Origin: Saccharomycopsis phalli
Taxonomy: Eukaryota; Ascomycota; Saccharomycetes; Ascoideales; Saccharomycopsidaceae
Length of the DNA stretch: 64,000 nucleotides
NCBI GenBank assembly: GCA_020342235.1
Contig: CP073218.1
Location: 1,476,685-1,540,684, forward strand
Direction: 5' to 3'
How positions within the stretch are numbered: the first letter of the stretch is position 1; every line of letters begins with the position of its first letter. Position numbers and translations under genes: made by a program. The notes beneath the pieces are model-generated. The model ran no database searches. It worked only from the letters and a program-made list of their open reading frames with translations, and was not told the origin of the DNA. Positions 13,163-56,609 of the stretch are shown here, in pieces.

Positions 13163-15214
13163 ATGACCCAGTGCCTAAGCGAACCATATTACCGTCAGGG
13201 CGACTCGGTGCAAGATGTGCTTGAAAGGCTCCCGTTACACCACTTTGGTGCAGTGGAGTTGCCTGGTACCAAAGCCAATGGGTACTCGCCAGTAGTGAGA
13301 CACGAGCTCTCAAAAGATAAGTTCATTGTGACTATCCACCCGGAGATCCAGACATTGTACGACTTCTTTGTCCACTCGGTGAAGCGAGTTCCAGACAGAA
13401 ACTATCTCGGGTACCATGACGGGTCAAAGTACCAGTACCTCACGTACCGACAGGCCGAGACCCAGCGCACGGAAATCGGCTCGGGACTTGTGTACTTGTT
13501 GGCCGAGCTAGGCATCGTCGACACTGCCGGCACTGTCATCACCATCTACCTTCCAAACTGCCACCAGTTTTCGTTGGTCGACTTGGCGACCCAGGCATAC
13601 TCACTTACAAACACCCCATTGTACGACACCCTCGGCAAGGATTCGTTCGAGTATATCTTCAGCTTGACAAACTCGCCGATTGTCGTCACCGAAAAGCTGA
13701 AAATCCCGCTCATCTTGTCCCTCAACCTCCCCTCGCTCAAGGTCGTGGTCTCAATCGACGACCTCTCTCTAGGCGACGACCACCGCTTGTTCCGCCAGGC
13801 CGCAGGCCGCACCCTCCTCGACTTGCGCGCGCTCCGCCGCCTAGGCGCCGCCCATGCAATCCCACACCGCCCGCCGCTCCCGCACGACATCTTCACTGTG
13901 GGCTTCACCTCCGGAACAACCAGCTTCCCCAAGGGTGTTCCCACAGAACATCGCATCATGGTGGCACAGGCGGTGTTCTTTCTCGGGGTCTTGCCATACC
14001 ACGATAAAAAGTCGCCCCAAAGCACCTACCTCTTGCTTCCCTTGGCCCACGTCTACAGTAGGGCCATGTTCTACATGGACACAATCTGTGGCTACACTGT
14101 CCATTATCCGTCGTCACCGGGAAACGTGGTCGCGTCCTTTGCCGACATCAAACACGTCAAACCTGTCGCCTTCATGGGCGTGCCTCGCATCCTAAACCGA
14201 ATCGAGCAGTTGCTCAAGGCAAAGTTGTCCAAGGACTCGTATGCTGGGCGGGCAATCCAGACCAAGGTCGACTCAATAAACGCAAACAACAACGAGGCTC
14301 ACTTTGTCTACGACAAATTCATCATGCCATCAGTTAGAGCCGCCATCGGCTTCGACAACGTGCGCTTCATTGCCTCGGGCCTGGCCGCAATCTCCAGGGA
14401 CTCCCTCGTATACCTCCGGGCGGCTCTAGGCATCCCCTGCATGCAGGGCATCGGCTTCACCGAGGCGGCAGGCGGCCTAAGCTGCCTGTCTCCAGAAACA
14501 AACTCCATCGGCACCAACGGGGTCATTGCCCCCGTCATAGAAATGAAACTCAAGGACGTCCCGGACATGAACTACACCTACGCCAAGAATCGCTCCGGCG
14601 AATTGTTGCTCCGTGGCCCCAGCATATGCCGCAGCTACTACAAGCAACAGGACTTGTTCAACGATAACATCGAGCTGGGTGGCTGGTACAAGACAGGCGA
14701 CATTTGCCAGTTGGATAGCAAGAACCGCATCTTGGTGCTCGATCGCGTAAAGAACTTCTTCAAGCTATCCCAGGGCAAGTTTGTCGCCTCCGAAAAGGTC
14801 CAGAACACTTACTTGGCCAGCAGCATGTTACTCGAGCAGTTGTTTGTCCATGGCACAAGCTTGGACTCTTATCTCGTGGGAATCGCAGGCATCAACGTCG
14901 AAAACGTTCTCAAGGTCTTGAAAGACCACAATCTCGGGCCGTCCGCCGACCCGAAACTGTTGCTCAAGTACATCAATCAGCGCCAAGTGAAAAAGTTGCT
15001 TCTCCAGCAGATTAACAAGTCCATTGGTGACGGCGACTTGACTTCCTACGAGATGCTCAAGAACGTCCATTTCTCAATTGCCCCTTTTTCAGTCGCTACC
15101 GACACTCTCACGCCCACTCTCAAGATCAAGCGGCCGCAAATCCGCAAGTTGTATGAGTCTGAGATTAAGTCCTTGTTTTCCGAGGGGAGTATCATCAGCA
15201 GCGCGAGGTTATAG
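13163..15214 (+). CDS. FAA2-like: Long-chain fatty acyl-CoA synthetase, probably peroxisomal
   Basis: A 683-residue ANL-family AMP-forming ligase. The P-loop-like motif FTSGTTSFPKG starts at residue 248. The A8-type segment GWYKTGDI is followed by ILVLDRVKNFFKLSQGK, the fatty-acyl-CoA synthetase signature, and there is an acidic/Lys core near the C-terminus. The last three residues are ARL, which fits the PTS1 peroxisomal targeting consensus, so it probably activates fatty acids for peroxisomal beta-oxidation as Faa2 does. In-frame CTG codons are few (five). The one at residue 407 lies in SG-x-AAIS, where relatives have Ser or Ala (SGSAPIS/SGASPLS), so Ser fits there and Leu does not. The start ATG at 13163 is the first in frame. 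Confidence 0.9.
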   Translation: MTQCLSEPYYRQGDSVQDVLERLPLHHFGAVELPGTKANGYSPVVRHELSKDKFIVTIHPEIQTLYDFFVHSVKRVPDRNYLGYHDGSKYQYLTYRQAETQRTEIGSGLVYLLAELGIVDTAGTVITIYLPNCHQFSLVDLATQAYSLTNTPLYDTLGKDSFEYIFSLTNSPIVVTEKLKIPLILSLNLPSLKVVVSIDDLSLGDDHRLFRQAAGRTLLDLRALRRLGAAHAIPHRPPLPHDIFTVGFTSGTTSFPKGVPTEHRIMVAQAVFFLGVLPYHDKKSPQSTYLLLPLAHVYSRAMFYMDTICGYTVHYPSSPGNVVASFADIKHVKPVAFMGVPRILNRIEQLLKAKLSKDSYAGRAIQTKVDSINANNNEAHFVYDKFIMPSVRAAIGFDNVRFIASGLAAISRDSLVYLRAALGIPCMQGIGFTEAAGGLSCLSPETNSIGTNGVIAPVIEMKLKDVPDMNYTYAKNRSGELLLRGPSICRSYYKQQDLFNDNIELGGWYKTGDICQLDSKNRILVLDRVKNFFKLSQGKFVASEKVQNTYLASSMLLEQLFVHGTSLDSYLVGIAGINVENVLKVLKDHNLGPSADPKLLLKYINQRQVKKLLLQQINKSIGDGDLTSYEMLKNVHFSIAPFSVATDTLTPTLKIKRPQIRKLYESEIKSLFSEGSIISSARL

Positions 15215-32720: not shown

Positions 32721-35700
32721 TTAGATCGTCTTCATACTCAAACCCTCAAGATCGTCTAACCAAGTTTTACCTTTTCTGGTATATGCCAATGGCTTGGTAA
32801 AAATATCTGCTTTTTGTTCAGTTGTAGGGATGTATTTTAATTCCAACTGATCGAGTTTAGCTAGATAGTCAATCTTTTGCCAGTAAGCAGTGTATCTCAA
32901 CAGCCGCTTCCGTTCCAGATTTATTTTGCTGATAGCTGGCTTATTGTCCACGTACGCAATCATTTTCTCTCTTTCCCTAGTATCGTTGTCATCTTCATCT
33001 GGCGTTCTTTTCCTCTCTTCTTCTCCCATGGCATCCAAGAATAATGTTATAAGGTCTTCTACTTCTTGACCTTCCTTAACCCCTTCATATAGAGCTAAAG
33101 TTTCAATTTCAGTTGTAGATTCTATTGGCTTATCAGCTTTCTTAGTCCTCCATCCTACAGGTACTCCGTATAACATGACAATGTACCCATAGTAGGAAGC
33201 TAGCTTTTCCGATCGGCCCTTATTCTTTTCACCTTGGTAAGATGCATCGGAATAAATTTCTATTCTTGTAGGTCGGTTGACTGGTTCAATTTTAATACCA
33301 TATTCTTTCGTGTTATGAAGATAATGCATTGCATGCCTAACTTTCACCCATACCTCTTCGTAATTTTCTCTTGACCATGATGAAAGATAATTTGCAACGA
33401 ATGTTAGATCAGGTCTGCACGCCCCTTGAACATAGTTTAATATACCCGTGAACTTGTTAAAGTTGTCGTGTGCCCTAGAGAGAGTAGGAGATTTTCCTAG
33501 ATCAATGTACTGCTGTATAGGAATCATTTTGGACGTTTTCAGTGCTATCGGACATATTTCTGGAGTTCTGCTTACGTCTTCTTTATCTCTGGATAGTATA
33601 ATACCATTCTTGGACAAGAGCGTTGTTTCAGAATCTTCAGTAGGATCAATTTTTCTAATTCTCAAACCCAAGAGTATCTGCGGAAACCCTAGGATCTTCA
33701 ATTCGACCTGTTGCCCTACCTCTTCCAAAAATGACGTCGCATCCGACTTATTTTTTGAAAAAACCACTATATCATCGACATAGACCATGATAATCATATT
33801 CTTATGTTCATTGTGATATATTGATTTCGCTATTGACGGTAATTCCTTCATTCCCATCTTAGTTAAAATAGTTTGGAAGTGTTTGTACCACGCTTTTGGA
33901 CTCTCCTTTAGACCATAAATGGCTCTAAGAATGTTCCAGGCTATCTTTTTATTTTTTTCCGTCTTCATTGACGTGGGTATATCTTTCGGAGGCTTAGCAT
34001 GAATGATTGTTCCTTCCGAAAGTTTCGCATTTAAAAATGCTGTTTTGACATCAGCTTGAACAATATGCCAGCCGAGTCGCACAGTTAAGATCAAAAGTAT
34101 TCTCAAAAGAACTAAGCGCACAGTAGGTGAGTATGATTCTTCATCAGTACTCGCAAGATACCGATTCAATTGATCACCTCTAAGTACTAGTCTGCTCTTA
34201 TAAACCTCGTCACTCTTTTTGGTATCTACCCAACGCATAGACATGAGTTTTTCATCCTTGTCTACTAAAATTTCCTCATACGTGCTGTAACTCGTATGGG
34301 ACTGGAGCTCTGTATCTCTGGCAGCTCTGCGTTTTTCCGGGTCTTCATAATCCCAAGCTTCGACATGATTTATTTTGTTAAGATTCATCCTTAATTGATT
34401 CCGCACGCTTGGTTTCGTGTGTTCAATTAGTGCATCATGTTCGTGAATCTCTTGACTTACTGCAATTGGTTCTGAAAGTCGTTGACGTTTCGCGTTTTCC
34501 AGATCCATGACTTCCCCTTCTGGGGCAATGTCGTTTGACGTTTCCTCGATGTTTAGTTCAGGGTTGTCTGCAGGTTGCGATCGTTTCTGAACTTGTTTCA
34601 TTGAAGTTTGTCCTCCTCCTGAATATCGTAGCGCAGGAATGATTTTGTGATACGATTGAATCGGTTCCCCAAATCCAAAGTTCACACACGTAGTTAAATA
34701 TCTTTTCCGTGTTATCACATCCTCAACTAGATACCCAAGATGGTTTACCTTACATCCTAGAAACCTGCCTAAAAGAGTAGGTTTTAGAACGTTGCGTTTT
34801 GCCTCGTTTCCGATATCAAAATGTACTCTAGCTCCGAACCGGTGAAAAATGTCTTTATCAATAGTTTTGATCCGATCTGGTCCCTCGTGTAGTAGTAAGG
34901 GAATTTTTCCTGATGATGGTCTCGGTGTTCTATTGTACTGATATGTGATATGGTTTAAGATATCTTGAAGGTAATATTTCTTCAAGTCGAAATTCAGTAT
35001 CTGCCATGCGTGTTGATTATACATCGAGTAAAGACTCGTTTTTATTATCTTGACTTTGTCCTTAACCACGCCCACGTATCTCTCCGCTACCCCATTCAAG
35101 GGACTTGAATTTGGTGGGAGTTCAACTTTCTCAATCCCGTGTTTTCCTAAGAAGTTGAGAAAGGAAGTTGATTTGAATTCCGTGCCTTGGTCAGAGTAGA
35201 ATCTCTTAAAGCCTCTTTTTAGTACGGGTTCAAGCTTTTCTTGAGCCATGTTCTTTGTCGGGAGAGTCTTAACCATCATCACTTTGCTATACTCATCTAC
35301 CGCAACCAAAACCGTGACACCTTCTATTTCTGCTAAATCTGCATGTAGAGTATGTCGTGGTATCTTCGCCTTATAGTAGAACATTGATTTTTGGTTGTTA
35401 TGTTTGACATTGGCTTCAAGACATTCAGGGCAACGGACCTCGTCCTTTTGTATACTCTGAATGGCTTCCTTACTTAGTTTGTATAAGTCCTTGTACCTAA
35501 GTAGGTTTCTCTCTTTCGTATGACCAAACCTCTTATGTAATTGTAGGGCTATACACTCCAGTGCTTGCGAATTCTCTACAGTTAAAGATAGAGACTCTTT
35601 GTTTAGAGGTAAGTAATTTAAACCTGTACTACTCCTGACTAACGGAGTTTTGTCCCCTTCATATTCAAGATGCGACCCTTCTTTGCCAGCAATTACCCAT

Positions 35701-36050
35701 ACCAGTTGACTTGTAAGATCTGTTTCAGCAACAATTGCCAAATGTCTTCCCATATCGGTCGGCTTAATGAAATAGGCGTTTACCTCTAGGGCATTACCTT
35801 CTAACGGGATCTTCATTTTCCCTGGTCCATATGCCGGAATGACTTCTTTTCCTACAGGCATGCAATTAATTTCACCCTCCTGAAGGTCTCGAATCATACC
35901 TTTATGAGTAGTCACCGATATCTCAGCACCGCTGTCAATAAGGAGTCTTTTGCCTGATTCTTCATTTAACTGGTCCGCCCTTATCTGAAACCTATATATT
36001 TTGGCTCCTTTAACCTTGTTTCCGACTCCTCGGTTTAGGTTTTCTTGGAT
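32721..36050 (-). CDS. Copia G Pol polyprotein (PR-IN-RT-RNase H)
   Basis: The frame is open from 36050 to the stop at 32721 (about 1109 codons), in the +1 frame relative to gag. In order it contains: protease active site LLIDSGAEIS; integrase zinc region (HKRFGH ... CPEC); DDE core (HADLAEIEG, YSDQGTEFKS, GVAERYVG); reverse transcriptase with SRLVLRGD, QADVKTAFLNA and active site MVYVDDIVVFS; and RNase H with IEIYSDASYQG, TTEIETLALYEG and IAYVDNKPAISK. The order PR-IN-RT-RH defines the copia (Pseudoviridae) group. It mediates processing, cDNA synthesis and integration of the element. No internal stop is present, so it is probably functional. Confidence 0.93.
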   Translation of the reverse strand: MQENLNRGVGNKVKGAKIYRFQIRADQLNEESGKRLLIDSGAEISVTTHKGMIRDLQEGEINCMPVGKEVIPAYGPGKMKIPLEGNALEVNAYFIKPTDMGRHLAIVAETDLTSQLVWVIAGKEGSHLEYEGDKTPLVRSSTGLNYLPLNKESLSLTVENSQALECIALQLHKRFGHTKERNLLRYKDLYKLSKEAIQSIQKDEVRCPECLEANVKHNNQKSMFYYKAKIPRHTLHADLAEIEGVTVLVAVDEYSKVMMVKTLPTKNMAQEKLEPVLKRGFKRFYSDQGTEFKSTSFLNFLGKHGIEKVELPPNSSPLNGVAERYVGVVKDKVKIIKTSLYSMYNQHAWQILNFDLKKYYLQDILNHITYQYNRTPRPSSGKIPLLLHEGPDRIKTIDKDIFHRFGARVHFDIGNEAKRNVLKPTLLGRFLGCKVNHLGYLVEDVITRKRYLTTCVNFGFGEPIQSYHKIIPALRYSGGGQTSMKQVQKRSQPADNPELNIEETSNDIAPEGEVMDLENAKRQRLSEPIAVSQEIHEHDALIEHTKPSVRNQLRMNLNKINHVEAWDYEDPEKRRAARDTELQSHTSYSTYEEILVDKDEKLMSMRWVDTKKSDEVYKSRLVLRGDQLNRYLASTDEESYSPTVRLVLLRILLILTVRLGWHIVQADVKTAFLNAKLSEGTIIHAKPPKDIPTSMKTEKNKKIAWNILRAIYGLKESPKAWYKHFQTILTKMGMKELPSIAKSIYHNEHKNMIIMVYVDDIVVFSKNKSDATSFLEEVGQQVELKILGFPQILLGLRIRKIDPTEDSETTLLSKNGIILSRDKEDVSRTPEICPIALKTSKMIPIQQYIDLGKSPTLSRAHDNFNKFTGILNYVQGACRPDLTFVANYLSSWSRENYEEVWVKVRHAMHYLHNTKEYGIKIEPVNRPTRIEIYSDASYQGEKNKGRSEKLASYYGYIVMLYGVPVGWRTKKADKPIESTTEIETLALYEGVKEGQEVEDLITLFLDAMGEEERKRTPDEDDNDTREREKMIAYVDNKPAISKINLERKRLLRYTAYWQKIDYLAKLDQLELKYIPTTEQKADIFTKPLAYTRKGKTWLDDLEGLSMKTI

Positions 36051-36864
36051 TTAATTCTGGGTGAAGAACATAGCATTCATCTTCACTATGAGTGTTTTTC
36101 TTGCATTTATCACAATACTTGTCAGACTTCAGTCCTTTCTTTTTCTTAGTTAGATGTTTAGAATTCTTCTTTCTGCTTTTTGTGAAATGTCCAAGATCAG
36201 ACACAGTTTTGTCTTCAGCGACCGGATTACCTTCTTTTAGTCTTTGGTAAACCGTAACAATTTTTCCATTCAACGTATCTCCTGGTCCGGTTAAGATCTG
36301 ATTATATGGATGATTAGACAGTTCCCAACCATTTGCTTCCAAGATTTGAACGACGACCTCGTCTTCCGTCTTCTGCGTCCGCTTCATGTGAGCATAGACT
36401 CTTTGTACCACTTGATGTTGAGTCGCTTCTGGCTTAAATTCCAATTTGGATAATTCTCTCCGGTTTTCAAACTTGTACACTCTCCGAATCTTGCGGTTTG
36501 TGTCTAAAAAGAGATCATACGCCAGTTGAGGGTTTTTCCGAATAGTTTCAGCTATCTCCCTCGGGAATGCTTTAGATAAAATTAAAATAAAAATAATTCT
36601 ATCCCGTGAAGTCTTTGCAGTCTTGTTCACGGATTCATCGCTTTCAAGAATGTATTTTACATTCCCAGCTTCACAAGCATCTTCAATTGCCTGTTGCCAA
36701 TTTTCCATCTGTTCCTGTGAGAACTTCTCAGGGAGGATTGATAAAGTATCGATGGCAATGCTTGCTGTCGAATTCGTAAGAATGTAGTTTGCTTTATCGT
36801 CCTGATCTCGCAACGGAGCTCGCACCATGTCGATGTCAATATCCTCGTCCATTGAGTGTGACAT
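36010..36864 (-). CDS. Copia G Gag protein, starting inside the 5' LTR
   Basis: 284 residues from ATG 36864, which lies 36 bp inside the 5' LTR (36828-37154), so the first 12 codons are LTR-encoded, as in Ty1. The C-terminal part is basic and has a zinc knuckle CDKCKKNTHSEDEC (CX2CX4HX4C). The stop is at 36012-36010. The pol frame (+1) opens at 36050, giving a window of about 40 nt containing AGA, CCG, AGG and CGG codons for a programmed +1 shift. Confidence 0.9.
   Translation of the reverse strand: MSHSMDEDIDIDMVRAPLRDQDDKANYILTNSTASIAIDTLSILPEKFSQEQMENWQQAIEDACEAGNVKYILESDESVNKTAKTSRDRIIFILILSKAFPREIAETIRKNPQLAYDLFLDTNRKIRRVYKFENRRELSKLEFKPEATQHQVVQRVYAHMKRTQKTEDEVVVQILEANGWELSNHPYNQILTGPGDTLNGKIVTVYQRLKEGNPVAEDKTVSDLGHFTKSRKKNSKHLTKKKKGLKSDKYCDKCKKNTHSEDECYVLHPELNPRKPKPRSRKQG
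36816..36827 (-). promoter_or_regulatory. Candidate primer-binding site of copia element G
   Basis: Directly after the 5' LTR the minus strand reads TGGTGCGAGCTC. A TGG start complementary to a tRNA 3' CCA end is the standard position. The matching tRNA would end GAGCTCGCACCA; I cannot name it. The site lies within the gag coding frame. Confidence 0.55.
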
Positions 36865-37154
36865 CGTTACAAACTTATACTCAGATATTTAGTTAATTAT
36901 AGATGAGTTTTTGTTCCTTTATAAGTGAATAATCGGAACGGTAGTGATGATTGGATTGATTTAGTTGTTTTCTTGAACTACGGAAATATCCTCTCTTTGT
37001 ATCAGATAATATTCCCTTATAAGATCCTATTGTTATGAGTTTCACTGGTTATTACAACAGCATAATCGCTTAGTTGTCTTACTCAGTGAGTACATTACAA
37101 CGTAGAATTGCTTCTCCGTTATAGGTGTCTTACTTGTGGTTCTCAACCTCAACA
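36828..37154 (-). repeat. 5' LTR of copia element G
   Basis: 327 bp, ends TGTCGATGTC and CCTCAACA on the plus strand, with TAATA outside. It contains the gag start codon. Confidence 0.93.
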
Positions 37155-37745
37155 TAATATCTACCCAGTTGATGTTTAGATTTCCAGCCACTCAATTTTA
37201 AGGTTAGAGTAAGTGTTTGGCAATATTTCAGTTTGCGTACAACTATCAATACAGGTTAGTCATTTGAATGACACCATTTTTGAAGACAGACACGGGTTAC
37301 TGTCCACAGGATCAACAGGTACATGGCATATTAATTGATACGGAGATGAATGATAATTCGGCAATTCAAGGATATAGTGGGGTATATCAACCATAACGAG
37401 CTCTAGTAGCTATTCGATTGGGGAGCATCAAAAAACCTGTGCTAGAGTGAATAAAAAATGTTCTAAAGTACAGTGTGAGGTAAGAGAATAGGTCTTGCCA
37501 AACCACAATGCCATTTGAACCACACAACAAAATAAAGCCAAATCCATGACTCCGTTTTTGGGACACTTCAAATTTACTAAAGATTTGATGCAAACGGTAT
37601 TCCGAATAAAAGTATCCGACTGATTTACTATAATCACCTATAGCGGCTCGTAAACATTATGTGGTGCATATGGTATGCCCCGAAGTTGAACATACACATT
37701 GGTACAGACAATTCCAACCTGTGACTATCCCGCGCAGGCTAATAT
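37155..37745. other. Flanking sequence, probably decayed retroelement
   Basis: No intact frame. A stretch near 37270-37440 reads as broken peptide on the plus strand, interrupted by stops. It continues the target of copia G, which could be the old gypsy-like element at 30782, but I see no diagnostic motif. Confidence 0.35.
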
Positions 37746-38160
37746 TGACGTAATCTAGCAGATCCTTATGGCATCCATATCTTCTATTATAGATAATTCA
37801 TCTTCTTGTTACTATACTAGCTATTTCCTGTCCTATTTATATTCTTTCTGAGATGCCTTCAGTTATCTTTATCTCATGACATCATTATTAGTATGACCTC
37901 ATATTATTATCAGTTCACTATTAGTATGACCTGATAACTTTATTAGATTGCTAATACTATGACCTCATACTCTTAATATACCATAAACAGTATGATATCA
38001 TGGTACTGAAGGATTGCTATTTCTCAATACCAGCTTATTTATCATGCATGATGTATATCACCATGCATTAACTCCTTCAACACTTTCAGCACTTTCAGCA
38101 ATCTCTAGGATTTTCGACATCTTCAACATTTAATCTCTCAGATCTTCGACATCTTCAACA
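37746..38160 (-). repeat. 3' LTR of the A-family element
   Basis: 415 bp, TGACGTAATC to CTTCAACA on the plus strand. Identical by eye to the partner at 40103. Confidence 0.93.
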
Positions 38161-38821
38161 CCCTCCCTTAACTGAAAGCTTCTCATTCCACACAGAAATT
38201 AACTCATTGAATTTACTATCTGCTAGAATCTTTGTGAGCACGTCTGCAATATTTCTTCAGCACCAAGTTCTTCATCCTATGGTTCTAACCATCAAAGCAT
38301 TTCTTTGACCCTACCGCCAATTATAGTTTCTTCAATTTCTTCGATCAATCGTTTCTGAAGCCTTCCGCTTCAATTTCCTGCGCCATAGACATAGCGGAAT
38401 AATAGCAGCTACCTTCATCAAAAACTAAGCATGCGTCACCGTAGCAATAATTAGTTTCGTCGGATAAAACAACCGACACCTCTCATAGTGCTTCATATTA
38501 TATGTAGACTCTCATCATCAATGGAATTTCATCAAAACTTGATAACCCATCAGTCATAACTGTTTTCCATCAGCACTTCTCCAGTTCTTTATTCGCATAT
38601 ATCATAACTCTTCACTTAACTGCCTTGATGCATTCATTCCTTTACCCCATTTTGCTAAGAATATCAGGAAAATACCAACCCATGACGGGCTCCCATGAAA
38701 CTGGTGAATAACTTTATTTCCAAATCTTCCACTTTAATCAGTCCTAACTATACCAACTCAGTGCAGTGATCCTTTACTCTGAAGTTGTCTCTCACTGACA
38801 ATAATAAGCTCAATTAGCACT

Positions 38822-39220
38822 TCAATGCTTTCTGAAATACTTTCTTTTCCTTGTATTTCCTTTCATTGTATCGATGATTTCAATCATGTCAGCTGCATAA
38901 ATCATCACAGCTCCTTCACTAATCACAGCTCCTTCACTAATTACCGATCTTTCACTAATCACCGATCTTTCACTAATCACCGATCTTTCACTAATCACCG
39001 ATCTTTCACTAATCACCGATCTTTCACTAATCACCGATCTTTCATTAATCACAGCTCCTTCATTAATCACAGCTGTTTCACTAATCACAGCTGCTTCACT
39101 AATTACAGCTGTTTCACATCATTGTCTTTCATTTGGTCCAACTTTGCTTCTTCGCCAATGAAACTAGAACTTCCTGAGCGTCATTACTATCCTGGTCAAT
39201 CATATCTATTTGCCACTTGA
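38822..39220 (-). repeat. 18-bp in-frame tandem repeat inside the A-family element
   Basis: About a dozen copies of CTTTCACTAATCACCGAT. On the element's sense strand an 88-codon frame from ATG 39088 encodes a repeating RSVISE hexapeptide; the opposite strand is open too (SFTNHR). Openness on both strands follows from the 18-bp period, so a protein product is unproven. Confidence 0.7.
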
Positions 39221-39235
39221 CATCCATGTCTGCTA

Positions 39236-39703
39236 ATAAGTCTCCTGACTATCTATAAGTCTCTTAATAAGTCTCCTGACTATCCATAAGTCTCTTAATA
39301 AGTCCCCTGACTTTCCATAAGTCTCTTAATAAGTCTCCTGACTATCTATAAGTCTCTTAATAAGTCTCCTGACTATCTATAAGTCTCTTAATAAGTCTCC
39401 TGACTTTCCATAAGTCTCTTAAAAAATCTCCTGACTATCCATAAGTCTCTTAGTAAGTCTCCTGACTATCCATAAGTCTCTTAATAAGTCTCCTGACTAT
39501 CTATAAGTCTCTTAATAAGTCCCCTGACTTTCCATAAGTCTCTTAATAAGTCTCCTGACTATCTATAAGTCTCTTAATAAGTCTCCTGACTATCTATAAG
39601 TCTCTTAATAAGTCTCCTGACTATCCATAAGTCTCTTAATAAGTCCCCTGACTTTCCATAAGTCTCTTAAAAAATCTCCTGACTATCTATAAGTCTCTTA
39701 ATA
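39236..39703. repeat. 31-bp tandem array inside the A-family element
   Basis: About 15 copies of a 31-bp unit, AAGTCTCCTGACTATCTATA followed by AGTCTCTTAAT, with a few CCC/TTTCC variants. It is non-coding (31 is not a multiple of 3) and makes up a quarter of the internal region. Confidence 0.93.
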
Positions 39704-39846
39704 ATCCCAACACAGAAATCCAATACCTCTTATCCCCCTTTGACAGCTGAACCTATACTAGGGTCAGCTTCATTCGAGGTAGAGGATCCACTATTAAATG
39801 TTTCTCTGAAACTCCTCATAATTTGATTCACAGGATTATTAATATT

Positions 39847-40102
39847 CTAATAAGTATCTTTGGGCAGTCTATTTTGCAATAAAATTCCATTGAGAGCATC
39901 TAATCCATTAGTTGCTTTAGTCAATAGACCATTGGGCGAACTGTCTGGTAAACCACGACCCCCCATTAACAAGATACTGAACAAGACCAATGCCATACGG
40001 ATCAAACTTCTGAACGAACACCTTTGCCCATCTGGCATAACTGGTAGCTCTTCGCAACTTTTCTGTTGGGTGAAAAACAGCCGCGCTTCAGGGCTCATAA
40101 CC
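39847..40102 (-). pseudogene. Degenerate gag start of the A-family element
   Basis: About 83 codons from an ATG that lies within the primer-binding site. LPDSSPNGLLTKATNGLDAL matches LPDGSPNEVVNNAATALDGI of the B-family Gag at 62180-63118. The remainder of gag has been lost, apparently replaced by tandem repeats. Confidence 0.8.
40089..40102 (-). promoter_or_regulatory. Primer-binding site matching the tRNA-iMet anticodon arm
   Basis: The plus strand here, CAGGGCTCATAACC, is identical to the anticodon stem-loop of yeast initiator tRNA-Met, so the element RNA (GGTTATGAGCCCTG) can pair with it over 14 bases. It abuts the 5' LTR. The ATG in it, complementary to the CAT anticodon, is also the gag start. 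Confidence 0.88.
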
Positions 40103-40517
40103 TGACGTAATCTAGCAGATCCTTATGGCATCCATATCTTCTATTATAGATAATTCATCTTCTTGTTACTATACTAGCTATTTCCTGTCCTATTTATATT
40201 CTTTCTGAGATGCCTTCAGTTATCTTTATCTCATGACATCATTATTAGTATGACCTCATATTATTATCAGTTCACTATTAGTATGACCTGATAACTTTAT
40301 TAGATTGCTAATACTATGACCTCATACTCTTAATATACCATAAACAGTATGATATCATGGTACTGAAGGATTGCTATTTCTCAATACCAGCTTATTTATC
40401 ATGCATGATGTATATCACCATGCATTAACTCCTTCAACACTTTCAGCACTTTCAGCAATCTCTAGGATTTTCGACATCTTCAACATTTAATCTCTCAGAT
40501 CTTCGACATCTTCAACA
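40103..40517 (-). repeat. 5' LTR of the A-family element
   Basis: 415 bp, TGACGTAATC to CTTCAACA. On the sense strand it has a TATAAATAGG box near the 3' end. Confidence 0.93.
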
Positions 40518-41398
40518 AATATTGCACATACTACATCAAGATCGAATCCTCAATGAAATTGAGAAATTTATTAAGAATGATTGAGACAATACATTGTAAA
40601 AGAAGGGATAAAATGCTACAACTAGTGTTGAGTATAATGTCAGCGTAAAATAATACCACAGGTCGATGTGATAAGCAAAGCCAACGATAAGTACGAATTA
40701 AGGAACAGTGTGCATCTTTGACTAACTATAAATACCAGAAGTTGGCTGGAATCTTCCTCGATATTCGACACATGTTTATCAAATACGTATCCTACAGCGG
40801 TTACTTGTTCTATTATAACTTGGGTATGTTGAAAATTAGGAGGAGATTGAATCATGCCTGCAGCAGCTTATGACGATGATAATGATGTGGACGATCCCGC
40901 TGCTCAGAACAAGTTTTTGAAGAGCGTGCCTTCGTCACAGAGATCTGTGACTAATTTTTTGAAAACATCAAACATACGTGCTTCAGACGACCAGTTAAGT
41001 TCCAGGGACAATTTTCTTACAATCCTTCTTGACTATACTAGGCTCCCAGGGCAGATTTATACTTCGCCGTCTATGACTAAGGACGGTGCCTCTATGTAGT
41101 CGAAAGAAAGCACTGCGACAGAGATAAAAACTTTCAACTGGAGCTAATGAATATGTAAGGTAATGAGCATTGGTAATTCCTTCAGGTATTTGTGCTTGGG
41201 CCCTCGAGCCCAATACGCCAATAATACAAAGAAGCATATCCCTATTAAAGTTGGTCCAATAGTCCCCACACCAATATAACATATGGCCTACTGGCAACGG
41301 TGTACCTGGGGATATTGATATAGTAGCAGAACTCTTAATTGCATCAATAAAGGTCATAGTGCCATACTCATCCTTACGAGCATGAAATCTCTCTGTAG
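40518..41398 (-). pseudogene. Decayed gag remnant related to the B-family Gag
   Basis: On the minus strand, 41390-40995 reads ERFHARKDEYGTMTFIDAIK and later FNRDMLLCIIGV, matching ERFHTIKDEYGTMSFAQAVK and FSQEMQSCIIGI of the Gag at 62180-63118. The left half (40518-40990) has no recognised content apart from an 81-codon plus-strand frame (40854-41099) that is probably spurious. Confidence 0.65.
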
Positions 41399-41553
41399 AT
41401 GTTGAAGATCTCAGAAAAGAGTATAAATATGGTAGACAGCTAGATCAAGGGAATATCCCGGTCTTTAAATTAATATAAATATGTAGTTAGATTAACAAGA
41501 TAAAAATTATCTATAATAGTAAGATAAGGAAGTCATTGATAGCTACGCTAGAT

Positions 41554-42072
41554 TGTTGATGAATACCATTTAAGGATAAGGTTTAACCAATCACTATTAG
41601 AGTTAACATTCCATAATAAGGTTCAACTGACAGTGAAGACAAGTATCCGGAATGTCGAAATCTAGCACAGATCCTTATGGCAACCATATCTTCTATTATA
41701 GATAATTCATCTTCTTGTTACTATTCTAGCTATTTTCTGTCCTATTTATACTTTTCTCTGAGATGCCTTCAGTTATTCTTAACTTCAGATACCTTTACCG
41801 GTGATCTCCTTAATGTATGATATCGTTGTCGATCTCCTTAATTTATGTGCTCACCAGTAGGACGATCTCCTTAATCTCTCAGATCCTCAACACGATCTTC
41901 AACACTCCTTAATCTCTAGGATCTTCAACATCTTCAACACGGAATAGGAACAAACTGGTAAACAGAATGTGAGTATAAATAGTATAGGATACGTATAGTT
42001 AGAATAACAAGAATTGACTTATTTACACCAAGTAAATATGGAAGCCGTACAAAGAGAAGCTAGATTACAACA
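41554..42072 (+). mobile_element. LTR 'H' copy 1, itself carrying a nested LTR
   Basis: TGTTGATGAATACC to GATTACAACA, flanked by the duplication TAGAT (41549-41553, 42073-42077). Its 3' end encodes MEAVQREARLQ, similar to the Gag start in the B-family LTR (MEAIERNASLR), so H is a related family whose Gag begins in the LTR. Confidence 0.9.
41653..41939 (-). mobile_element. Solo LTR (A-related, 287 bp) nested in LTR H
   Basis: TGTCGAAATCTAGC to CTTCAACA with the perfect duplication CGGAA (41648-41652, 41940-41944). The empty site is seen in LTR H copy 2 at 51694-51920. Confidence 0.92.
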
Positions 42073-42276
42073 TAGATTACGACACTTTTTGTGTAGTCCT
42101 ATTACAATGCATACCTCGTGACATATTATGCATAATCGAACGTCTTATACAGTGCAGAGTCAACAGATAAAACGATGCTAGTTGCATTCACACTGCGATT
42201 CACGCTCCATACAATACTCTATATGATTGTGATCATAATTACAAAAAAAAATTAGTAACAAATATCAAAAATATGA

Positions 42277-42367
42277 CGACACAGACAGGATTCGAACCTG
42301 CGAGGCAAATGCCAGCGCCTAACAAATTTCTCTGTGGGCGGCGCCTTAACCACTCGGCCACTGTATC
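42277..42367 (-). tRNA. tRNA-Ser with anticodon CAG (reads CUG), 10-nt intron
   Basis: The minus strand begins GATACAGTGGCCGAGTGG. Its acceptor stem is perfect (GATACAG/CTGTGTC, discriminator G). It has a class II variable arm (GGC-ATTT-GCC) and T-arm GCAGGTTCGAATCCTGT. The anticodon region is CCGCC-CACAGA-[GAAATTTGTT]-A-GGCGC. By alignment with the tRNA-Ser(GCT) gene at 56509 (ATGCC-CTGCTA-[intron]-A-GGCAT) the anticodon positions read CAG. Position 33, normally U, is A, and pair 27-43 is C-C. The G73 discriminator and long variable arm are serine identity features. A TTTTT terminator follows (42267-42271). The gene would let the cell read CUG as Ser. Residual doubt: it could be a mutated, inactive Ser gene. 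Confidence 0.75.
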
Positions 42368-42372
42368 TATGG

Positions 42373-42456
42373 TGAAGGATACGAGGTTCGAACTCGCGCG
42401 GGAGTATTCCCAACAGATCTTAAGTCTGCCGCCTTAGACCACTCGGCCAACCCTCC
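42373..42456 (-). tRNA. tRNA-Leu (TAA)
   Basis: 84 nt, no intron. It starts GGAGGGTTGGCCGAGTGG. Anticodon loop CTTAAGA closed by GCAGA/TCTGT gives anticodon TAA. Variable arm present, discriminator A. It lies five bases upstream of the tRNA-Ser(CAG) gene on the same strand with no T-run between them, so the two are probably one transcript. Confidence 0.92.
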
Positions 42457-42510
42457 TTTTCATACATGTTTTTTTTTAAATTAGGTACTTCTCTACACTT
42501 CTCTCGACAT

Positions 42511-43122
42511 TTTTGTAACGAGAAAAGGTCAAGACTACTCTTCACGTGATTGTATCCTGTGATAATGACGTACATACTACGTATGTGACGAATAATCAAG
42601 GTCGTTTCAGAAAGGAATCATAATAAATATGCAGGATGAGGAGGAGAACAATAGGAACAATAAGCAATCACCAGTTAGTATTTAAAGGACAGGAGGTCCA
42701 CTAAATCGAGGAGCAAATTTTTATATATTATTATACATATATTACGGCTGTAATTCGTGCATTGTGACCGACGCAACACTGTTACCCACTGATACTTTTG
42801 CCAACAAACCACCAACAACCCACCAACAACCCACCAACAACCTAAAGTGGCCCCGTAAATTCGAGGTCCGTCAGATAATGTTGTGATTGTGTTCCTTAGT
42901 ACTATTGTGATTGTGTTCGGAGTGTCCCACATATTACACAAGTACAAATCCATTCTTAGGAAAAGTATAAATAGCTGTTTAAGTCGCTAGTAATGGGATA
43001 TCTTAAGTTCACTTTAGAACTATTTACAACTTATATTTGTAGTTACTCTTATTATCTTATTGATTAACTCGATATAAGTGTTATAGCAGAAGCGTTGAAT
43101 AAATTCTGTTATATTTGGTAGC
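42511..43122 (+). repeat. Old LTR-like repeat 'K' (copy 2), split by a solo LTR
   Basis: Same sequence as 27009-27963 in the opposite orientation, with a solo C LTR at 42566-42873. It contains AAAAGTATAAATAGC. It lies just upstream of the tRNA-Leu/Ser pair, as the other copy lies just upstream of tRNA-Ala. Confidence 0.6.
42566..42873 (+). mobile_element. Solo LTR, copia family 'C' (308 bp)
   Basis: TGACGTACATAC to GGTCCGTCA with the duplication GATAA on both sides (42561-42565, 42874-42878). It differs by several substitutions and small gaps from the copy at 27212. Confidence 0.92.
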
Positions 43123-43762
43123 TGACGGACCTCGAATTTACGGGGCCACTTTAGGTTGTTGGTGGGTTGTTGGTGGGTTGTTGGTGGTTTGTTGGCAAAA
43201 GTATCAGTGGGTAACAGTGTTGTGTCGGTCACAATGCACGAATTACAGCCGTAATATATGTGTAATGAAGAAGAAGGTTTACCCTTAATTTTTGGAACTC
43301 GGATCGTCCTTGTATTCCTTTTAGAGGATTAGGACTTTCCCTTTTTAATTGTTATTTCCTATCTGGCTCTTGCTCTTCCTTAAGTGATCTCCCTTTTGGA
43401 TTATTATTTCCTATCTGGCTCTTGCTCTTCCTTAAGTGAAGTTGCCCCAACCGGTTCAACTCCACTTGACTCCGATCATAAGCCCTTTATTATCAAGTAT
43501 AAATAGTCAGACTTTTCTTTGAATAGTCAAGCGAATATATTTTAGCTATTTTACCACTCGTATCCTAGTTGCTATATTACAATATGTATAATAATATATA
43601 AAAATTTGCTCCCTGATTTAGTGGACCTCCTGTCCCTTAAATACTAATTGTTGATTGCTTATTGTTCCTATTGTTCTTCCCCTCATCTTGCATCCTAGTT
43701 ATTTGTTATGGTTGCTCTCTGATCAATCAGGATTATTCGGCACATACGTAGTATGTACGTCA
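43123..43762 (-). repeat. 3' LTR of copia C, with nested LTR D
   Basis: Without the 321-bp insertion and its duplication it is 314 bp, the same length as the 5' copy. The first three bases of the LTR on the sense strand (TGA) form the stop codon of pol, and the preceding AAAAGAGGAGAAA is both coding sequence and purine tract. Confidence 0.9.
43261..43581 (+). mobile_element. Solo LTR 'D' (321 bp) nested in the copia C LTR
   Basis: TGTAATGAAG to TATATTACA with the perfect duplication ATATG (43256-43260, 43582-43586). It has a TATAAATAG box near the 3' end. A short related piece lies at about 53783-53813. Confidence 0.92.
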
Positions 43763-56508: not shown

Positions 56509-56609
56509 CGTCACAGACAGGATTCGAACCTGCGCAGGTAAAACCCAATGCCTAACAACTAAGATTAAACTTTAGCAGGGCATCGCCTTAACCACTCGGC
56601 CACTGTAAC
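56509..56609 (-). tRNA. tRNA-Ser (GCT) with a 19-nt intron
   Basis: The minus strand starts GTTACAGTGGCCGAGTGG; acceptor GTTACAG/CTGTGAC, discriminator G. The anticodon arm is ATGCC-CTGCTA-[19 nt]-A-GGCAT, anticodon GCT. It has a long variable arm and T-arm GCAGGTTCGAATCCTGT. The last about 25 nt and the 3' flank (GTCATATTTTTGG) are nearly the same as in the tRNA-Ser(CAG) gene, so the two are recent paralogues. Confidence 0.9.

Follow-up and report, generated by a model that had tools for sequence, protein, structure and literature searches.

The window, that is, the whole stretch of 64,000 nucleotides that was analysed, carries a 91-nt tRNA gene with the anticodon CAG on its minus strand (Table 1). 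The gene was matched to the Rfam tRNA family RF00005 by cmscan, with a score of 39.2 bits against a gathering score of 29. A class II model of our own, built from seven mature sequences with that of this gene among them, gave 80.5 bits. ARAGORN as run made no call here, nor for the intron-bearing tRNA-Ser(GCT) at 56509. The acceptor sequence GATACAG, the long variable arm and G73 are of the serine type. As a preliminary description of the locus had it, this serine-type body holds CAG where the paralogue at 56509 holds GCT. Read 5' to 3', the anticodon loop comprises C32, A33, CAG, A37, the intron and A38. The anticodon stem is CCGCC/GGCGC, including the C27xC43 mismatch. The 10-nt intron and this mismatch had both been pointed out beforehand and are both present in the sequence.

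Table 1. Position and strand of the tRNA-Ser(CAG) gene, its parts, its paralogues and neighbouring genes. Positions are those of the window except where a contig is given.
Feature	Position	Strand	Remarks
tRNA-Ser(CAG) gene, 91 nt	42277..42367	(-)	Rfam RF00005; one of three genome copies found
Anticodon CAG (34-36)	42332..42334	(-)	A33 before (42335), A37 after (42331); from the sequence
Anticodon arm 27-43	42315..42341	(-)	C27 (42341) x C43 (42315) mismatch
10-nt intron GAAATTTGTT	42321..42330	(-)	Pairing of its G at -3 with C32 is possible; presumably spliced out
T5 run 3' of tRNA-Ser(CAG)	42267..42271	(-)	From the sequence; likely Pol III terminator
Second tRNA-Ser(CAG) copy	C5:1553992-1554082		100% identical; same A33, CAG, A37 and intron
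Third tRNA-Ser(CAG) copy	C3:1181409-1181499		99% identical; same A33, CAG, A37 and intron
tRNA-Ser(GCT), source-type paralogue	56509..56609	(-)	U33, 19-nt intron; one of six found
tRNA-Leu(UAA) gene	42373..42456	(-)	Directly upstream of tRNA-Ser(CAG)
AMP-binding protein gene	13163..15211	(+)	Its five CTG codons entered the codon test

The tRNA-Ser(CAG) gene was used as a DNA query against the assembly to which the window belongs (14.15 Mb in 8 contigs). Nine matches were returned: three tRNA-Ser(CAG) genes, the query locus included, with 100, 100 and 99% identity, and six tRNA-Ser(GCT) genes with 75-78%. No gene of the UCN type was among the nine. Derivation of tRNA-Ser(CAG) from tRNA-Ser(GCU) is indicated by this similarity. 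The three CAG copies differ at one acceptor-stem base only, at which a G-U pair becomes A-U. The A reported in place of U33 is confirmed in all three. Since three copies carry A33 and the same intron, the sequence of this tRNA is attributable neither to chance nor to sequencing error.

Introns are identical in the three tRNA-Ser(CAG) genes; those of the six tRNA-Ser(GCT) genes are 16-21 nt long and all different. In all 13 serine genes examined (3 CAG, 6 GCT and 4 CGA), the residue facing C32 is a G located three bases upstream of the 3' splice site, as would be expected if the two formed the anticodon-intron pair. The predicted fold of the precursor arm is different: there, A33 to A37 are paired with the intron, and a GAAA loop closes the helix. 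Pairing of the intron with the anticodon, proposed in the preliminary description, is therefore a feature of the predicted precursor. As the C32-G pair can form and the pairing with A33-A37 is predicted, both appear possible in the tRNA-Ser(CAG) precursor.

The meaning of CUG was assessed by aligning relatives of encoded proteins with the CTG codons masked. In pyruvate carboxylase (PYC), CTG codon 195 fell in a column that was serine in 120 of 120 aligned relatives. Both PYC CTG codons together gave S 124, A 1 and L 0 in 240 cells. For the AMP-binding protein, S 13 and L 1 were counted in 44 CTG cells, figures that a separate set of columns reproduced, and CTG 407 lay in a column with serine in six of nine relatives. 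At ordinary codons of the same protein, serine was found at 29% for Ser codons and leucine at 48% for Leu codons. The CTG columns of the amidase were uninformative, serine and leucine each occupying 43 of 480 cells.

Pfam searches under both codes covered 20 proteins, half of them from the window and half from other loci; four of the 20 matched no family. Families that overlapped, among them AAA_23 as a competing match at the place of SMC_N, were dropped from the sum. For the 16 non-overlapping domains whose score differed between the codes, Ser minus Leu came to +23.9 bits. Fourteen of these favoured serine; SMC_N (-4.8 bits) and RVT_2 (-1.0) favoured leucine. AAA_23 favours leucine by 9.7 bits, and replacement of SMC_N by AAA_23 lowers the sum to +19.0. 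For 12 domains of ten proteins, the totals were 2823.6 bits for Ser, 2822.8 for Ala and 2799.5 for Leu. With Ser and Ala this close, Pfam alone does not exclude alanine at CUG; alanine decoding was rejected on the PYC column and the tRNA itself. Taken together, the aligned CTG codons and the Pfam scores argue for translation of CUG as serine in this genome, in support of the earlier proposal that this tRNA should read CUG as Ser.

A normal tRNA-Leu(CAG), the finding named in advance as speaking against that proposal, did not appear in seven pattern searches of the genome, which are not equivalent to a census. When 2 mismatches were tolerated, the D-arm of leucine tRNAs matched 20 known tRNA-Leu genes and 3 other places, none of them a tRNA-Leu(CAG). 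Of the 36 matches to a gapped D-arm pattern, 34 were class II genes that had been read before; the remaining 2 were not among them. Three patterns that combined TCAG and a T-arm and allowed for short or long introns gave 7, 2 and 5 matches and no tRNA-Leu(CAG). The 3' half of the Saccharomycopsis malanga tRNA-Leu(CAG) probe had no match in the genome with up to 3 mismatches, and the T-arm core of that probe had a single match, in apparent coding DNA. Our class II model detected nothing at the 7-match and 2-match TCAG loci, the T-arm-core locus and the 3 other D-arm loci, and known genes were found in the same run. Nothing was found by Rfam at locus L064. One of the 5-match set was the same place as in the 7-match set; the remaining 4 were assessed by visual inspection alone.

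The 34 class II genes with the common D-arm were read by eye and comprised 12 tRNA-Leu(CAA), 5 tRNA-Leu(AAG), 3 tRNA-Leu(UAA), 1 tRNA-Leu(UAG), 6 tRNA-Ser(GCT), 4 tRNA-Ser(CGA) and 3 tRNA-Ser(CAG). tRNA-Ser(AGA) and tRNA-Ser(UGA) were not retrieved by the class II D-arm patterns and presumably have another D-arm; since they were missed, these patterns do not amount to a full tRNA census. The only tRNA-Leu(UAG) found (L029, 1428-1525) has an intron and a G at position 32, according to our reading of its splice sites.

The host was placed by protein similarity. Among the best 120 of 7996 matches to the PYC piece (L047), the best named match was Saccharomycopsis crataegensis at 85%; three matches without a name stood at 92, 88 and 84%. 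Further named matches in this set were Cyberlindnera and Wickerhamomyces (80%), Kuraishia and others (79%) and Ascoidea rubescens (78%). The best named match of the AMP-binding (acyl-CoA-synthetase-like) protein was also S. crataegensis, at 41%. The best named relatives of the window amidase were Scheffersomyces and Candida, not Saccharomycopsis. The G+C content was 42% in the window and in the other loci read, unlike the 33.84% given for S. schoenii (PMC6508603). The host is most likely Saccharomycopsis or a near relative, judging from these proteins. With a host of this appearance, the tRNA-Ser(CAG) falls in the CUG-Ser2 clade.

CUG ordinarily encodes leucine, and a limited set of yeasts translates it with a serine tRNA of this kind. 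The CUG-Ser2 clade consists of Ascoidea and Saccharomycopsis. Its tRNA-Ser(CAG), made from tRNA-Ser(GCU) and with A at 37, was described in 2018, and serine at CUG was identified by mass spectrometry in two species (PMC5951914). The gene described here agrees with that tRNA in the tRNA-Ser(GCU) source, the Saccharomycopsis/Ascoidea host, the serine-type body with CAG, and A37, the last in three of three copies. It stands apart in that tRNA-Leu(CAG) is kept in four of the five CUG-Ser2 species of that paper, Ascoidea rubescens being the one without it, whereas none was found here by patterns. The terms position 33, A33 and G33 are absent from the main text of PMC5951914; its cloverleaf figure may show the base.

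The closest comparison is provided by S. malanga, for which the sequence of a tRNA-Ser(CAG) northern probe is printed in the Methods of PMC8629427. In that study, the tRNA was expressed and charged, the amino acid not being identified by the assay. The complement of the probe is identical to the present gene from GGTTAAGGC through the whole anticodon arm, and C27xC43, C32, A33, CAG, A37, A38 and T44 are common to both. Differences lie in the D-loop, with two extra bases, and at one base of the variable arm; neither the acceptor nor the T-arm is within the probe. Since the probe carries A33, A33 is not new. The novelty that the preliminary description implied is not supported: the CUG-Ser2 tRNA had been described (PMC5951914), and A33 together with C27xC43 is present in the probe (PMC8629427). 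The genetic-code change and the unusual anticodon loop are already in print, and the locus adds one more member to a described family. The parts of the published texts that were covered mention neither the 10-nt intron nor the closely spaced tRNA-Leu(UAA) tandem nor the predicted three-base stem slip.

A 2019 report gave the S. schoenii tRNA-Ser(CAG) as lacking G33 but having m1G37 (PMC6508603), which conflicts with PMC5951914 and with the A37 found here. As a speculation, the G that forms the first intron base here might explain the m1G37 reading. Introns have been reported in S. schoenii serine tRNAs, with the anticodon not given in the text covered (PMC13148404). A bacterial tRNA, tRNA-ProX, also combines A33 with a crossing of amino acid and codon, and is an unrelated proline tRNA; the role of A33 in mistranslating tRNAs was called unexplored in the same 2024 review (PMC11415595).

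The locus is almost certainly a CUG-decoding tRNA-Ser(CAG) gene of a CUG-Ser2 (Ascoideales) yeast, with two further copies that are identical to it or nearly so. From known biology, the gene would be transcribed by Pol III, with the tRNA-Leu(UAA) upstream of this copy perhaps on the same transcript, and the 10-nt intron would be removed by the splicing endonuclease. The tRNA would then be charged with serine by SerRS, an enzyme that does not read the anticodon, and serine would be inserted at CUG. A37 in place of G37 would remove a leucine-identity element. A33 and C27xC43 may weaken LeuRS recognition or decoding.

Ambiguous decoding could be added to this reading, with CUG partly translated as leucine through a missed tRNA-Leu(CAG), wobble of the tRNA-Leu(UAG) at L029, or mischarged tRNA-Ser(CAG). 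Ascoidea asiatica does read CUG as both Ser and Leu (PMC8645108, PMC11415595), both CAG tRNA types were reported in 2021 for 10 of 11 Ser2-clade species (PMC8629427), and SMC_N and AAA_23 score better here with leucine. We nevertheless judge it quite unlikely, given the seven pattern searches without a tRNA-Leu(CAG), A37 instead of G37, and the scarcity of leucine at CTG positions of PYC (0 of 240 cells) and the AMP-binding protein (1 of 44), though not of the amidase (43 of 480). Absence of tRNA-Leu(CAG) would not be unique: A. rubescens is without it, and a single CAG tRNA was reported for S. fodiens (PMC6508603).

Folding of the tRNA was predicted with ViennaRNA, unconstrained and without modifications, tertiary contacts or proteins. 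The canonical anticodon stem of tRNA-Ser(CAG) had a probability of about 0, against 0.98 for a slipped stem, displaced by three bases (GCGCC/GGCGC). For this slipped stem, each of six further class II tRNAs gave a probability of 0. tRNA-Ser(CGA) and tRNA-Ser(GCT) also folded poorly, with canonical stems at ≤0.07 and ≤0.23, respectively. The bases of the predicted slip are also present in the S. malanga probe. The model gives a hint of a three-base slip of the anticodon stem and no more.

This preference for a shifted stem, the unusual A33 and stem mismatch, and the missing ARAGORN call are what might be expected of a relic, that is, an unused, mutated tRNA-Ser(GCT) copy whose anticodon loop is broken, in which case a different tRNA would read CUG. 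Such a relic is highly improbable here: the copies are identical except for the one acceptor-stem base, G-U to A-U; the intron is constant in the three CAG genes while all six tRNA-Ser(GCT) introns differ; a tRNA with an identical anticodon arm is both expressed and charged in S. malanga (PMC8629427); and CTG codons follow serine. Sequencing error and pseudogene were both rejected on account of the three matching copies.

The CUG-Ser1 (Candida) tRNA-Ser(CAG) is likewise a serine tRNA with CAG and, mostly, a purine at 33, but it derives from the UCN type and carries G33 (C33 in C. tropicalis and C. sojae) and in most cases m1G37; that of C. albicans is reported to be mischarged with leucine at a low level (PMC8645108, PMC5951914). 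The comparison with Candida made in the preliminary description stands as an analogy and fails as to origin, the Candida tRNA having come from a UCN serine tRNA and itself having mostly G33 and G37. An independent reassignment of the Candida (Ser1) type, outside the Ser2 clade, would share codon, amino acid and mostly the purine at 33 and would suit the amidase, yet it has very little chance of being correct and was dismissed on kinship with AGY-type tRNA-Ser(GCT) with no UCN gene among the nine matches, on A33 and A37 in place of G33 and G37, and on a pyruvate carboxylase nearest to Saccharomycopsis.

For the CUG-Ser2 tRNA-Ser(CAG) that we prefer, a function of the arm itself may be suggested. 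The arm GCGCC-GCCCACAGAA-GGCGC, which contains C27xC43 and A33 and recurs unchanged in S. malanga, might be a selected attenuator, in which the stem slips by three bases, LeuRS is kept off and the tRNA decodes slowly, independently of the Candida G33. We put this forward as a doubtful proposal. If A33 and C27xC43 do act against LeuRS or slow decoding, two lineages would have met the same problem with different bases at 33. A known, separate origin of CUG-to-serine decoding was recovered from raw sequence, and this genome may add a case of loss of the ancestral leucine tRNA.

The spacer between tRNA-Leu(UAA) and tRNA-Ser(CAG) is 5 nt (CCATA, 42368-42372) and contains no T-run. Since a T5 run, likely a Pol III terminator, lies behind tRNA-Ser(CAG), this copy may be co-transcribed with tRNA-Leu(UAA) as one Pol III transcript. 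Five tRNA-Leu(CAA)-tRNA-Arg(UCU) tandems with spacers of 12-14 nt are also present in the genome (L012, L017, L019, L026 and L028), and the other two tRNA-Ser(CAG) copies have no tRNA within 45 bases upstream; for these reasons a special role of the tRNA-Leu(UAA)-tRNA-Ser(CAG) tandem was set aside and nothing specific is claimed for it.

Possible signs of mobile elements were noted beside the tRNA pair, at 32721-43702. These comprise an RVT_2 reverse-transcriptase ORF at 32721-35897; a direct repeat of 300 nt (37746 and 40103), of which a third, shorter copy lies at 41668; and inverted repeats at 42730-42877/43119-43266 and 42620-42740/43582-43702. Two tandem arrays are present in 38842-39797, one with an 18-nt and one with a 31-nt unit.
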